A stretch of DNA of 64,000 nt. Origin: Meghimatium bilineatum (lineage: Eukaryota > Mollusca > Gastropoda > Stylommatophora > Philomycidae). Within the stretch, counting starts at the first letter, position 1. Each line of letters opens with the position of its first letter. The DNA lies in the NCBI GenBank assembly GCA_034231615.1, contig CM067318.1:33823382-33887381 (forward strand), read 5' to 3'. Below, one piece after another: positions 14,291 to 62,555 of the stretch. Position numbers and translations under genes: made by a program. The notes beneath the pieces are model-generated. The model made no database searches, had not been told where the DNA came from, and saw only the letters and a program-made list of their open reading frames with translations.

Positions 14291-14343
14291 GTCGGTTGCA
14301 GAGTGACGTGCCTAGCTACGACGAGTTCAATAAAAGAGATGTT
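14291..14343 (+). CDS. Candidate 53-nt exon of an unidentified gene
   Basis: The segment follows a good 3' splice site ('tttctctgtttgtcag', 14275-14290) and is followed by a consensus 5' splice site (gtaagta at 14344). After two bases completing a codon it reads RLQSDVPSYDEFNKRDV with no stop and ends at a codon boundary (phase 0). Codon content looks unlike the surrounding AT-rich DNA. I do not recognise the protein. The candidate exon at 62373 starts in phase 0, so both could belong to one + strand gene with very long introns. Confidence 0.4.
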
Positions 14344-14496
14344 GTAAGTATGTGTGGTGATATTGTCATAGCAGTTGTTCCATTTACATATGTGTGAGTG
14401 GGTGTGTGTGTGCCTGGTACAATCAGTATTATGACAATACATATATGTCCTGTGATTAATTAAATTAAGGATGTGATAAAGTGAGTAATGTGAACT

Positions 14497-14525
14497 GAGA
14501 GAGAGAGAGAGAGAGAGAGAGAGAG
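14497..14525. repeat. (GA)n microsatellite
   Basis: Uninterrupted GA dinucleotides for about 29 bases. Confidence 0.95.
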
Positions 14526-14779
14526 GTGGGAGGAGAGAAGGTCAAAATAAATGAGAGAGAGACAATGAGTAGCACAGTACCAAAATATAAAAAATTGTTT
14601 TGTAAATACAAACACTGAATATATCATTTTGGAAATGAGAACTTCAAAATAATAGATGATTACGCCAACCTACTGGTACATAGTGATAAGTGTAGTAACT
14701 TGGAAATACTTTTATATGTAGACATTGTTGGTGGAGAACACTTATATACAAATAATATTGTTGCAGATCACAACACGAG

Positions 14780-14905
14780 AGAGTTACTAGCAACTAATGT
14801 TATGATTAGACAAGATTCTGCTAGAGCTACTAGCAACTAATGTTATGATTAGACAAATCTCTGCTAGAGTTATTAGCAACTAATGTTATGATTACACGAA
14901 TTTCT
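14780..14905. repeat. 43-bp tandem repeat, three copies
   Basis: 'tagcaactaatgttatgatt' recurs at 43-bp spacing (14788, 14831, 14874). Confidence 0.9.
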
Positions 14906-14984
14906 GATACTTAATTACAACTAGTACTGTTGTGCACGAAAATAACATCTTAGAAAACAACTTGTCTGCGACAAACCATTGGCA

Positions 14985-15440
14985 GTTCTATAAGTCTGAT
15001 ACTGCAAGAATTATAAAATGCTTTATCTATTCTATATTAATGTATGGCTCAGCAACATGGACACTAAACAAACAATAAGAAGACAATTGATGCCTTTGAG
15101 ATGTGCGTATATAGACGAATTGGAAATACATCATGGAAGGAGAAAACAAAGTCTTTCTAAAAATACTTAATATGAAGAAAGAATTACTAAGAGAAATTAA
15201 GACAGGCAAATGACATAATTTGGTCACATTAAAAGACATGACACCTTATTGAAGACCTTACTTGAGGGTAGAGTCAAAGGGAAACAAGCAAGAAGTAGGC
15301 AGAGATACAAGTGGGAGAGTGACACCACAAGAGGAACAGGTTACAGTCTAGCAGAGTGCACCACAAAAAACAAGAGATGGGATCTGGAGGTATGTTGCAG
15401 CAACCTTCGATGCGGAGATGTCACATGATGATGACTGCAA
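14985..15440 (+). mobile_element. LINE-III C-terminal fragment
   Basis: The + strand gives, with frameshifts, FGHIKRHDTLLKTLLEGRVK, then a basic run, YKWESDTTRGTGYSLAECTT and the end block CCSNLRCGDVT, finishing in 'tgatgatgac', the (TGA)n-type 3' end often seen in RTE-like elements. The same tail occurs at 1-110 and 60868-61000. Confidence 0.7.
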
Positions 15441-15583
15441 GAAATAATGAGAAAAACAATCAGCATTTTATAAACCTGATAATGCAGGAAATAAACAATA
15501 ACATGAGTAGTAAGATGATCCACAATCAGAGATCTCTGAGAGGATCCATATCCACGCATCCATTCCAACAGTACATTCAGTGA

Positions 15584-15865
15584 GCTCTGTCAGGACCTAC
15601 ATCTATTCATTCATTCCAACAGCACATTCAGTGAAATCTGTCAGGACCTACATCTATTCATTCATTCCAACAGCACATTCAGTGAAATCTGTCAGGACCT
15701 ACATCTATTCATTCATTCCAACAGCACATTCAGTGAAATCTGTCAGGACCTACATCTATTCATTCATTCCAACAGTACATTCAGTGAGCTCTGTCAGGAC
15801 CTACGTCTATTCATTCATTCCAACAGCACATTCAGTGAGCTCTGTCAGGACCTACATCTACTCAT
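15584..15865. repeat. Minisatellite, 51-bp unit, five to six copies
   Basis: The unit contains 'gtcaggacctacatctattc' and 'caacagcacattcagtga'. 51 is divisible by three, so a frame stays open (VRTYIYSFIPTAHSVKS per unit, 15580-15948) simply because of the periodicity. Units alternate between gtgaaatct and gtgagctct endings. Confidence 0.93.
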
Positions 15866-15989
15866 TCCAGCAGATGTATACAAATATTCTTGTTGTTCAT
15901 GGTATTTGCAGGTTTTATATATACTTCGGCTTTCTACTTCATAAATAGTAGGTTCTACTCGTTCTATAGTTACTATTTAAAACAACATT

Positions 15990-16610
15990 TTAGCATGTAT
16001 GTTTCATAAATAAATCAGTCATTTCTACTAGTCTGTCGTAAACCACGTTCAGAATCTCTCTGATGTGAACGTTCAATTCTACGACTATACATTCCTCGAA
16101 ATAAGTGATACCGGATGTGGAAAAAAGTCGGATATCGACGAAGTTTTTATTTTTCATCAGGACAGCTCGATATGTCACATTACAGATCGATATGATACAA
16201 CAAATGTCAATGCAGACCAATTAGAATATTTCAAATATTTAAAGAAATTGTTCTTATAATAAACTGCTCTAGAGAGATACTAAATTGTTATGGAAACAGA
16301 GTATACCGCCATACAGACAGAATAAACTACTATACAGACAATATACATCTACAGATTGTGATGAATGATTATGAACAATTTACTTGAATAAATAAGCTGT
16401 AAGACCAATCAAATGGTGACTAAAAAATCTGAGCTGATTAATGCGTATCCGGAAAAACACCGAAAAGAAATAAGGCATTTATCATGAGAGAGTAAGAAGA
16501 TTTCAGATAGAAGAGATACTAATATTAAACCAATCTTGCAATTCTTGGACATGTGATAAGACAACATTCACTTTGTATGACGATTGCAAGAAACAGTTTA
16601 GGGGGGGGGG
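15990..16610 (+). mobile_element. Possible decayed LINE C-terminal fragment
   Basis: Weak evidence: ADQLEYFKYLKKLFL at about 16210-16257 resembles the FKYLG segment after the RT palm. AILGHVIRQHSLCMTIA at about 16525-16590 resembles the LGHVxR tail block. The rest is too broken to follow. A run of 13 G lies at 16602-16614. Confidence 0.35.
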
Positions 16611-16614
16611 GGAA

Positions 16615-60865: not shown

Positions 60866-60867
60866 CG

Positions 60868-61000
60868 TATCATCATCATCATCATGAAGTGCCGTCACCG
60901 TAACAAACTTTTATTGTAACTACCTCCAAAATCCCATGCCTCTTGTCTTGGTGGTGGACTCTGCTAAATGTAACCTTTCCATCTCGTGATGTTAGGAATT
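60868..61000 (-). mobile_element. LINE-III 3' end (minus strand)
   Basis: Minus strand: 'atcacgagatggaaaggtta' 'catttagcagagtcc' 'accaccaagacaagagg' and then 'ggtgacggcacttcatgatg' with a (TGA)n tail at 60868-60882, the terminus typical of this family. Confidence 0.6.
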
Positions 61001-61244
61001 GACTCATCACATGATCAATAAAGAATATTATGATTAGACCCATAATATAATCCATTCTGTTAGATATTGACATTAGAATCTTTTTAGACGTGGTTCTATG
61101 TTGTGACAATGTGTCTCTGTCAAGTCGCGGCTGGTAATCACTTGGACAGATTGGATGACAGGTCCAGTAAGCTACGTTCATGGTTTCTATATTTCTAATA
61201 TATACTCGTATAACACACGATGAAGTACGTTTATTATGTAAAAC
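61001..61244. other. No recognisable feature
   Basis: AT-rich spacer. Confidence 0.35.
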
Positions 61245-61476
61245 GTAAAGCTATGTCACATGGCAGCAACCTGCCGTTGGGGATGTAGATAACTCTTCAT
61301 GTACTAAGCCGCAGCAACTATTAGGCGGAGTGGCAAGTTCCCTTCCTTGATGTCCTTACTTCCCCTAGCTCATGCTTCAGTTACTCATTTACAGTTGAAT
61401 CGACTGGATTAGTGGCACGCTGTAAACCAGTGATATAAAGCAAGCTCACTATCAACTAGGCTACCGAGTTCCTCGT
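61245..61476 (-). mobile_element. SINE-3 copy 2 (minus strand), uninterrupted
   Basis: Minus strand: 'gaggaactcggtagcctagt', 'caactgtaaatgagtaactg', 'acatcaaggaagggaacttg', 'ggcttagtacatgaagagtt' 'atctacatcc' and 'caacggcaggttgctgccat'. It aligns with 47675-47913 plus 48233-48275, showing where the minisatellite arose in copy 1. Confidence 0.78.
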
Positions 61477-61502
61477 ATGTACTATTAACACAAGTTTTAA
61501 AT

Positions 61503-61680
61503 ATGCGACATAGGCAACCATGACATGCGACATAGGCAATCATGACATGCGACATAGGCAATCATGACATGCGACATAGGCAATCATGACATGCGACATA
61601 GGCAATCATGACATGCGACATAGGCAATCATAACATGCGACATAGGCAATCATAACATGCGACATAGACAAACATGAGAT
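61503..61680. repeat. 22-bp tandem repeat, eight copies
   Basis: 'atgcgacataggcaatcatg' 'ac' with few substitutions. Confidence 0.94.
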
Positions 61681-62031
61681 GAGCCCGCATACTGCATAAC
61701 ACATACTTCATACATGTAACAAATTACACAAAGAGAGATAACACAGATATACCAGTGAGATTACTAAATTTCGCAGCTGAGGAGCTTCTTTGGATGGCTG
61801 GAAGCAAATCGTGAATTTCATTGCAGTGTGGGGTGTCACGATGTCATGAAACCCATGGTGACAATTTGAAGAATGATGAAGAAAACGAAGGAAATATATT
61901 ATGCGGCTTACTGTTGATGAACATATACAGACCGTGTACTCACCACAATTCACAAACCAATATCGTTTCTATCGCACCCTTCCAACAATAGTTTGATTTA
62001 TTTGTTATTATCTAACAAGACCTTTATTCAC
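61681..62031. other. No recognisable feature
   Basis: Unassigned sequence. Confidence 0.35.
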
Positions 62032-62102
62032 ACACACACACGCACACACACACACACACACACTCACATACAGGTATACACATACATATAGACACACACA
62101 TA
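62032..62102. repeat. (CA)n microsatellite, imperfect
   Basis: CA dinucleotides with a few interruptions. Confidence 0.9.
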
Positions 62103-62163
62103 CCCTCTTGTGATACAATTAAAAAACACATTATCAAATGATAACCATGAACACTTAAGAATA

Positions 62164-62358
62164 TTTACGCATGATGTCATAACTTCTCTCACCTTATCTT
62201 GTTTACGCATGATGTCATAACTTATCTCACCTTATCTTGTTTACGCATGATGTCACAACTTATCTCACCGTATCTTGTTTACGCATGATGTCATAACTTA
62301 TCTCACCTTATCTTGTTTACGCATGATGTCACAACTTATCTCACCTTATCTTGTTTAT
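62164..62358. repeat. 38-bp tandem repeat, five copies, next to a candidate exon
   Basis: 'tttacgcatgatgtcataac' 'ttatctcaccttatcttg' at 62164, 62202, 62240, 62278 and 62316. The last copy's pyrimidine-rich end lies 15-40 bases before the AG at 62371-62372 and could serve as its polypyrimidine tract. Confidence 0.93.
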
Positions 62359-62372
62359 ACGTGGTTATTCAG

Positions 62373-62555
62373 TCACTGTTGAACAGAGAAGATCTAGTAT
62401 CAGTCAGGGAAGATGAACGTGAGCGGGCTCAGGCTATCTTAGACGCTGGAGAAGATGTCAAGAGAAGTTTACAGACTCTGAGGAACGGTCTACAAGATCG
62501 ACTATTTCAATTGTTACGTCCATCAATTTCTGCAAGTTACGATGAAAGTAAATAA
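62373..62555 (+). CDS. Candidate exon with charged helical sequence
   Basis: After 'ggttattcag' the frame opens with SLLNREDLVS, then VREDERERAQAILDAGEDVK, then RSLQTLRNGLQDRLFQLLRP, ending SYDESK and TAA at 62553. The region is rich in Glu, Arg and Leu at helix-like spacing and is clearly different in composition from the flanks. It starts in phase 0. An internal donor (gtaaata at 62547) offers an alternative end. I know of no family it belongs to. The upstream ATG at 62313 lies in the 38-bp repeat and is unlikely to be the real start. Confidence is moderate that it is coding, low on exact ends. Confidence 0.48.
   Translation, partial: SLLNREDLVSVREDERERAQAILDAGEDVKRSLQTLRNGLQDRLFQLLRPSISASYDESK

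Follow-up and report, generated by a model that had tools for sequence, protein, structure and literature searches.

What kind of gene, if any, could place its coding sequence in pieces of a few codons each, scattered over tens of kilobases of repeats? This question is raised by a stretch of 64,000 nucleotides (nt) from the genome of the gastropod Meghimatium bilineatum (C21:33823382-33887381), hereafter the window. On its plus strand, a first-pass annotation had pointed out seven main and four weaker open segments between splice acceptors and donors, and had proposed that they belong to one gene of symmetric micro-exons with an unrecognised product, leading into a longer exon at 62373. All 11 segments are present, at or within one base of the positions given to them, and the proposal stands in its essentials: a diverged paralog on a second contig, C8, appears to keep both flanking exons and, between them, seven in-phase micro-exons. 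We hold it very probable that the window contains the 3' portion of a genuine protein-coding gene with seven phase-0 micro-exons; these tiny exons (3 to 30 nt), spread across ~48,000 nt of repeat-filled DNA, appear to encode 28 amino acids.

The putative gene (Table 1) is bounded in the window by an upstream coding exon and a terminal coding exon that lie 48,029 bp apart. Between them, 84 nt of coding sequence are split over micro-exons of 6, 9, 3, 9, 12, 15, and 30 nt, with introns of 1.1 to 13.9 kb that are rich in transposons and minisatellites. By the generic splice matrices used for scoring throughout, the upstream exon has an acceptor score of 5.9; its donor is GTAAGT and its frame is open from base 3. 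The exon begins mid-codon, so at least one further 5' exon must exist.

Table 1. Exons of the putative micro-exon gene with their C8 counterparts (start positions for micro-exons, whose lengths are the same in both copies), followed by mobile-element remnants in the window.
Feature	Position in window	Strand	Position on C8	Description
Upstream coding exon	14291..14343	+	9073203-9073264	53 nt; first 2 nt finish a split codon; ends in phase 0; RLQSDVPSYDEFNKRDV
Micro-exon 1	17994..17999	+	9076381	6 nt; FM; length, place, and peptide equal in C8
Micro-exon 2	31032..31040	+	9086499	9 nt; GVR (C8: GLK)
Micro-exon 3	33418..33420	+	9089401	3 nt; L (C8: M); length, position, and splice sites agree with C8
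Micro-exon 4	47349..47357	+	9096593	9 nt; CAGTGTCTG; QCL (C8: QCK)
Micro-exon 5	48448..48459	+	9098607	12 nt; THPR (C8: IQAR); donor GTGAGT
Micro-exon 6	52779..52793	+	9103750	15 nt; NCPGG; same peptide in C8, three synonymous changes
Micro-exon 7	56780..56809	+	9111185	30 nt; YVLKRNRLIE (C8: IVLKRNRLME); 8/10 residues identical
Terminal coding exon	62373..62555	+		phase 0; 60 residues to TAA
hAT dimerisation region	1912-2064			
Frame with RNase H	5724-6920			
Reverse transcriptase fragments	~21600, ~36800, ~54100			three fragments
Mos1-like mariner	49527-50172			two pieces

The decisive evidence for this gene is the paralog, which, by comparison of the two loci, appears to carry seven micro-exons of equal length in the same order. 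When the genome (32 contigs, 1.61 Gb) was searched at the protein level, with the two flanking exons joined as the query, the matches were the window exons themselves, a stop-free place at C8:9120529 (E 1.81), and a place on C17 (E 6.45) that was dropped as a LINE-like fragment with an internal stop; in the reverse search from the C8 exon, the window was the sole other match (E 0.43). Because E-values of this order prove nothing by themselves, the pairing of the terminal exons rests on what the two share: a CAG acceptor at the identical codon, phase 0, and a corresponding stop, the sequences reading TILNREYTLNSKDIGHTQAQDIVDARRELNRSLDRLRN... against SLLNREDLVSVREDERERAQAILDAGEDVKRSLQTLRN.... 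The candidate penultimate exon of C8, the best match to that of the window in 60 kb upstream of the terminal exon and 47,264 bp from it, is 62 nt long, starts with two split-codon bases, and ends in KRDV followed by the donor gtgagt; the acceptor before it was judged pyrimidine-rich by eye.

Within the C8 intron, the micro-exons can be traced one by one. Comparing the masked DNA of the two loci by tblastx gave, amid noise, an exact NCPGGVSI match (E 55) between 52779 in the window and 9103750 in C8, which was picked out since 52779 had already been listed by the first-pass annotation. Segments bounded by GTRAGT in C8 encode, in the expected order, FM, GLK, M, IQAR, NCPGG, and IVLKRNRLME. A scored splice-site scan with no fixed donor word yielded 22 in-phase segments in the window and 29 in C8, which form 40 equal-length pairs; ranks 1 to 4 went to YVLKRNRLIE/IVLKRNRLME, NCPGG/NCPGG, FM/FM, and QCL/QCK, while THPR/IQAR ranked 5, GVR/GLK 6, and L/M 9, with a shortened QCL/QCK at rank 7 and two non-corresponding segments at rank 8. 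All seven equal-length, in-phase pairs are collinear between the window and C8, and every micro-exon of both copies (14/14) has a GTRAGT donor. The collinear chain scores 109, a value reached by none of 4000 dinucleotide shuffles (2000 per intron, with maxima of 36 for C8 and 34 for the window), and a separate set of 300 shuffles gave a chain maximum of 27. The eight corresponding intron lengths are also correlated between the copies (Spearman 0.81, p 0.015), and this holds though the sequence flanking the exons does not align, identity right outside the splice sites being 24 to 39% without gaps. An all-phase scan disclosed no further conserved exon of another phase or length class among the best 16 of 519 pairs.

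Taken exon by exon, the comparison with C8 appears to give strong support to the exons at 14291, 17994, 31032, 47349, 52779, 56780, and 62373. Support appears moderate for micro-exon 3, whose single codon offers little sequence evidence, and for micro-exon 5, where order, length, and strong splice sites agree and peptide similarity is low. All five micro-exons among the main segments first listed have C8 counterparts, the one placed at 47350 being real but starting at 47349, and micro-exon 5 (48448) is an addition to that list. The weaker candidates fared unevenly, that at 33418 being supported and the other three finding no support: the segment at 27674 has a phase-0 stop and an acceptor score of -6.4, that at 55652 has no tract and an acceptor score of -6.8, and that at 10574 has an acceptor score of -1.6 and, read in the frame that would lead into 14291, contains a stop.

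Tandem arrays occur close to the terminal exons. In the window, a five-copy array of 38 bp (62164-62357) stops 15 bases short of the terminal exon, and an array of 26-bp units (62566-62679) lies past the stop codon of that exon and leads directly into a 100-N gap (62680-62779); each 26-bp copy contains GTAAGT, which accounts for five spurious donors. At C8:9120014-9120551, a 54-bp unit (18 codons) occurs ten times in tandem, and every copy carries the acceptor and first codons of the C8 terminal exon (CAG followed by ACAATCTTGAATAG), which gives a row of ten in-frame acceptors; an in-frame stop is present in three of the copies.

The two copies also allow the conservation of the encoded protein to be compared along its length. 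The 84 aligned nt of the micro-exon block show 19 differences (6, 4, and 9 at codon positions 1, 2, and 3), and its 28 codons comprise 12 that are identical, 7 with synonymous changes, and 9 in which the residue changes. By the Nei-Gojobori method, nonsynonymous (dN) and synonymous (dS) divergence in the block are 0.19 and 0.60 (dN/dS ~0.32). In the terminal exon, codons 1 to 42 give dN 0.58 and a saturated dS of 2.1; in the penultimate exon, dN over the final 17 codons is 0.51 and dS is not computable. Residues kept between the window and C8 number 19/28 in the micro-exon block, 6/17 in the penultimate exon, and 21/60 aligned in the terminal exon. By these counts, the block is the best-conserved part and the conserved core of the predicted protein, and is under purifying selection; its lower dS may reflect an added splicing constraint.

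Several points weigh against a gene of this kind. Searches for 5' exons over 83 kb of upstream sequence in C21 and 12.6 kb in C8, by a paired scan, an initial-exon scan, and a coding score, yielded none and gave nothing above controls. The penultimate-exon match scores 28 in 62 kb, and chance matches reach 32 in 264 kb; with its similarity within the chance range, the case for this exon is made by its splice sites (donor and acceptor), phase, and place. The L/M pair is one codon only, THPR and IQAR are dissimilar in sequence, and the pyrimidine tracts at 31032 and C8 36065 are weak; the tract of micro-exon 2 scores -0.8 in the window and better in C8 (2.6), and the C8 member of micro-exon 4 (QCK) has a weak acceptor (-2.1). 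In addition, the chain test used score cut-offs that had been chosen once the first matches were already known, and three strand controls scored 0, 0, and 40, the last value stemming from a single pair.

One alternative is that the flanking exons are real, that a plain 48-kb intron joins them, and that the micro-exons are chance segments chosen by eye. Splice words are indeed common: splice-bounded candidates in all phases number 54 in the window intron and 70 in C8, and in the window intron multiples of three are not clearly in excess (21, 16, 17). Counting, within the window, GTAAGT donors with an AG 3 to 60 nt upstream and an open segment of a multiple of three between them gives 14 on the plus strand and 15 on the minus strand when nothing is masked, the minus strand being equally productive, with 11 of its 15 donors coming from one tandem array. 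Once tandem arrays (9,655 bases) are masked and the pyrimidine tract is scored, an acceptor cut-off of 0 leaves 6 on the plus strand, one of them inside the 14291 exon, versus 0 on the minus strand, and 31032 falls just under this cut-off; sequences sampled from Markov models of three orders have means of 1.1 to 1.5, a count of 6 being attained in 0 to 0.5% of the 200 samples drawn for each order. At a cut-off of -3, the counts are 8 versus 3, with 8 reached by 0.5 to 6% of Markov samples, and at a cut-off of 4 they are 1 versus 0, with the count reached by 7.5 to 10.5%. The first-pass annotation had named the minus strand and shuffled sequence as controls that should yield fewer phase-consistent segments; the unmasked strands do not bear this out, and the masked ones do at cut-off 0. 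Because the hypothesis arose from the same sequence, chance statistics within the window alone are suggestive only. What tells against chance segments is that equal lengths, the same order, and largely equal peptides recur in an independent 47-kb intron, at a chain score that no shuffle attained, and we regard this alternative as very improbable.

For the gene with seven micro-exons that we favour, a single transcript would be spliced through all of them, each being defined by a strong GTRAGT donor plus its own acceptor. Because all seven are symmetric, any one could be skipped with the frame left intact, which would allow the locus to produce a graded series of proteins, with differences of 1 to 10 residues. 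We lean slightly towards regulated skipping of at least some micro-exons. Constitutive inclusion, in which an ordinary conserved protein has been finely cut by ancient introns and no splicing diversity results, is a serious contender that stops a little short of an even chance: the block is the best-conserved part, including its two cysteines, which suggests that all pieces are needed together, but such a history does not require seven phase-0 multiples of three, for which simple arithmetic gives ~(1/3)^7 if lengths are free. More doubtful is the idea that these are neural micro-exons under the SRRM/eMIC programme. A UGC lies at most 25 nt upstream of 8/14 micro-exons versus 28% of 1935 background acceptors (p 0.02), and UGC enrichment is described for fly eMIC exons in PMC8797185. 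However, the enrichment fades as the interval is widened (p 0.05 at 30 nt and 0.13 at 40 nt), and fly eMIC exons, according to the same paper (PMC8797185), have weak donors, in contrast to GTRAGT in 14/14 here.

As to the product, searches with both the incomplete and the full micro-exon series found no family in Pfam and no significant match in PDB, and a Pfam search of the plus strand of the window in three frames, at E up to 1, gave domains of transposons and, beyond these, a single weak match to a DUF (E 0.1). For the terminal exon alone, AlphaFold2 with two sequences predicts one continuous helix (pLDDT 85, pTM 0.52), a structure for which no PDB fold match was found. A scan of viral contigs with the terminal exon gave 35 pattern matches and no relative; literature searches found no match for peptide words from the exons and retrieved nothing on micro-exon clusters. 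Matches to HNOBA (E 0.16) and NUP210 (E 0.24) were discarded as noise. That the gene is DNAJC9 or encodes a CARD protein is hardly tenable. The direct join of the flanking exons has a weak PDB match to DNAJC9 (E 0.21), and a two-sequence profile has one to the CARD of BCL10 (E 0.12); however, with a human DNAJC9 query no convincing exon was found within 100 kb in either direction, the best match (E 0.18) containing an internal stop, and a CARD profile fails to separate clearly, since 35/933 and 182/958 scored shuffles reach the pair. A CARD is unlikely also because the terminal exon is modelled as one long, continuous helix rather than a CARD bundle, with no match to a PDB fold.

In both paralogs, the micro-exon residues run between dibasic KR pairs (KR-DVFMG..(L/M)QC....RNCPGG.VL-KR) and include two cysteines. 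The block might encode a secreted peptide, its two cysteines possibly forming a loop, which we consider improbable: no right-phase signal-peptide exon was found in the upstream stretches searched, and conservation continues past the second KR to LNRE. If the block did encode such a peptide, in-frame exons strung over ~42 kb would together make up the mature product of a single prohormone gene; leaving out individual exons would shorten it by 1 to 5 residues, with a combinatorial set of peptides as the outcome. A likeness of CKIQARNCPGG to vasopressin/oxytocin was set aside as no more than a resemblance; the spacing differs, and the known exons hold nothing neurophysin-like.

Several known systems use exons of comparable size. 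Neuronal SRRM3/4 (eMIC) micro-exons are mostly single cassettes in ordinary genes; they resemble the present ones in being very short and in-frame, some with upstream UGC motifs, and differ in that here seven are consecutive, with no normal exon found between them, and the donors are strong. In Drosophila Ubx, two tiny in-frame micro-exons lie inside a very long intron, an arrangement like the one at this locus, where there are seven, recognised by paralog conservation only. The micro-exon tags of plants likewise keep length and phase among relatives; in PMC8831610, they are 1-15 nt long, with 16, 21, and 8 in phases 0, 1, and 2 over 45 clusters, and adjacent pairs are mentioned, so that mixed phases and adjacent pairs stand against seven exons all in phase 0 here.

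The closest likeness is to the micro-exon genes (MEGs) of the flatworms Schistosoma, Hymenolepis, and Echinococcus, which, as described in PMC7653826 and PMC10526429, share with this locus consecutive symmetric micro-exons, longer introns, and an unrecognised product. A working definition for tapeworm MEGs, given in PMC7653826, counts as micro-exons those shorter than 70 nt with a length divisible by three, and asks for a gene of no fewer than seven exons in which micro-exons make up at least half and occur four or more in a row. At this locus, all seven lengths (7/7) are below 70 nt and divisible by three, seven micro-exons are consecutive in both copies, and the exons number nine, the run and the total being by genomic evidence; micro-exons constitute 7/9 of the known exons, the 5' exons not being among these. 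On genomic evidence, three parts of that definition appear to describe the gene, and its structure would work like that of a MEG, but we do not file it in the flatworm class. According to PMC10526429, the MEGs of schistosomes carry signal peptides, their exons measure 3 or 6 to 81 nt, and their introns extend to ~5 kb, a figure given for S. mansoni, compared with 13.9 kb here. Schistosome MEGs also have high dN/dS between orthologs according to PMC4350168, unlike the value of ~0.32 here, although the comparison is indirect, setting paralogs against orthologs.

Among the repeats of the window, ~27 copies of a 48-bp minisatellite at 57523-58839 stay open for 446 residues on the plus strand and 438 on the minus strand, and these frames are a false gene for callers of open reading frames. 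A tRNA-Ala(CGC)-like sequence at 12046-12118 (34.4 bits) is probably the head of a tRNA-derived SINE, because the translation around it recurs elsewhere in C21 and C8. A possible exon at 1810-1935 was rejected as belonging to the hAT transposase remnant. Upstream of the window, on the plus strand from about -91600 to -68920, lies what we take to be an NWD2-like NACHT/WD-repeat gene. It ends in its own stop at ~-68,920 and its last exon has a single genome match, itself; for these reasons, the exons of the micro-exon gene are not its tail. Downstream on C21, plus-strand exons at +133118, +136144, and +143270 presumably belong to a RERG-type Ras GTPase-like gene, and minus-strand exons from +146413 to +156301 presumably to an omega glutathione S-transferase-like gene.

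At least six of the pieces described here, those of 15 nt or less, would in all likelihood escape ordinary gene finders, and comparing the introns of paralogs for collinear, equal-length, splice-bounded codons offers a route to discovering such genes that needs no RNA. Symmetric micro-exons in rows are familiar mainly from parasitic flatworms, in which they are interpreted as a means of diversifying secreted proteins. That seven in a row, one of them a single codon long, keep their order and lengths in two diverged paralogs of the large, repeat-rich genome of a mollusc suggests that genes of this kind are not confined to flatworms, and that micro-exons can form the conserved core of a protein, not its variable part.

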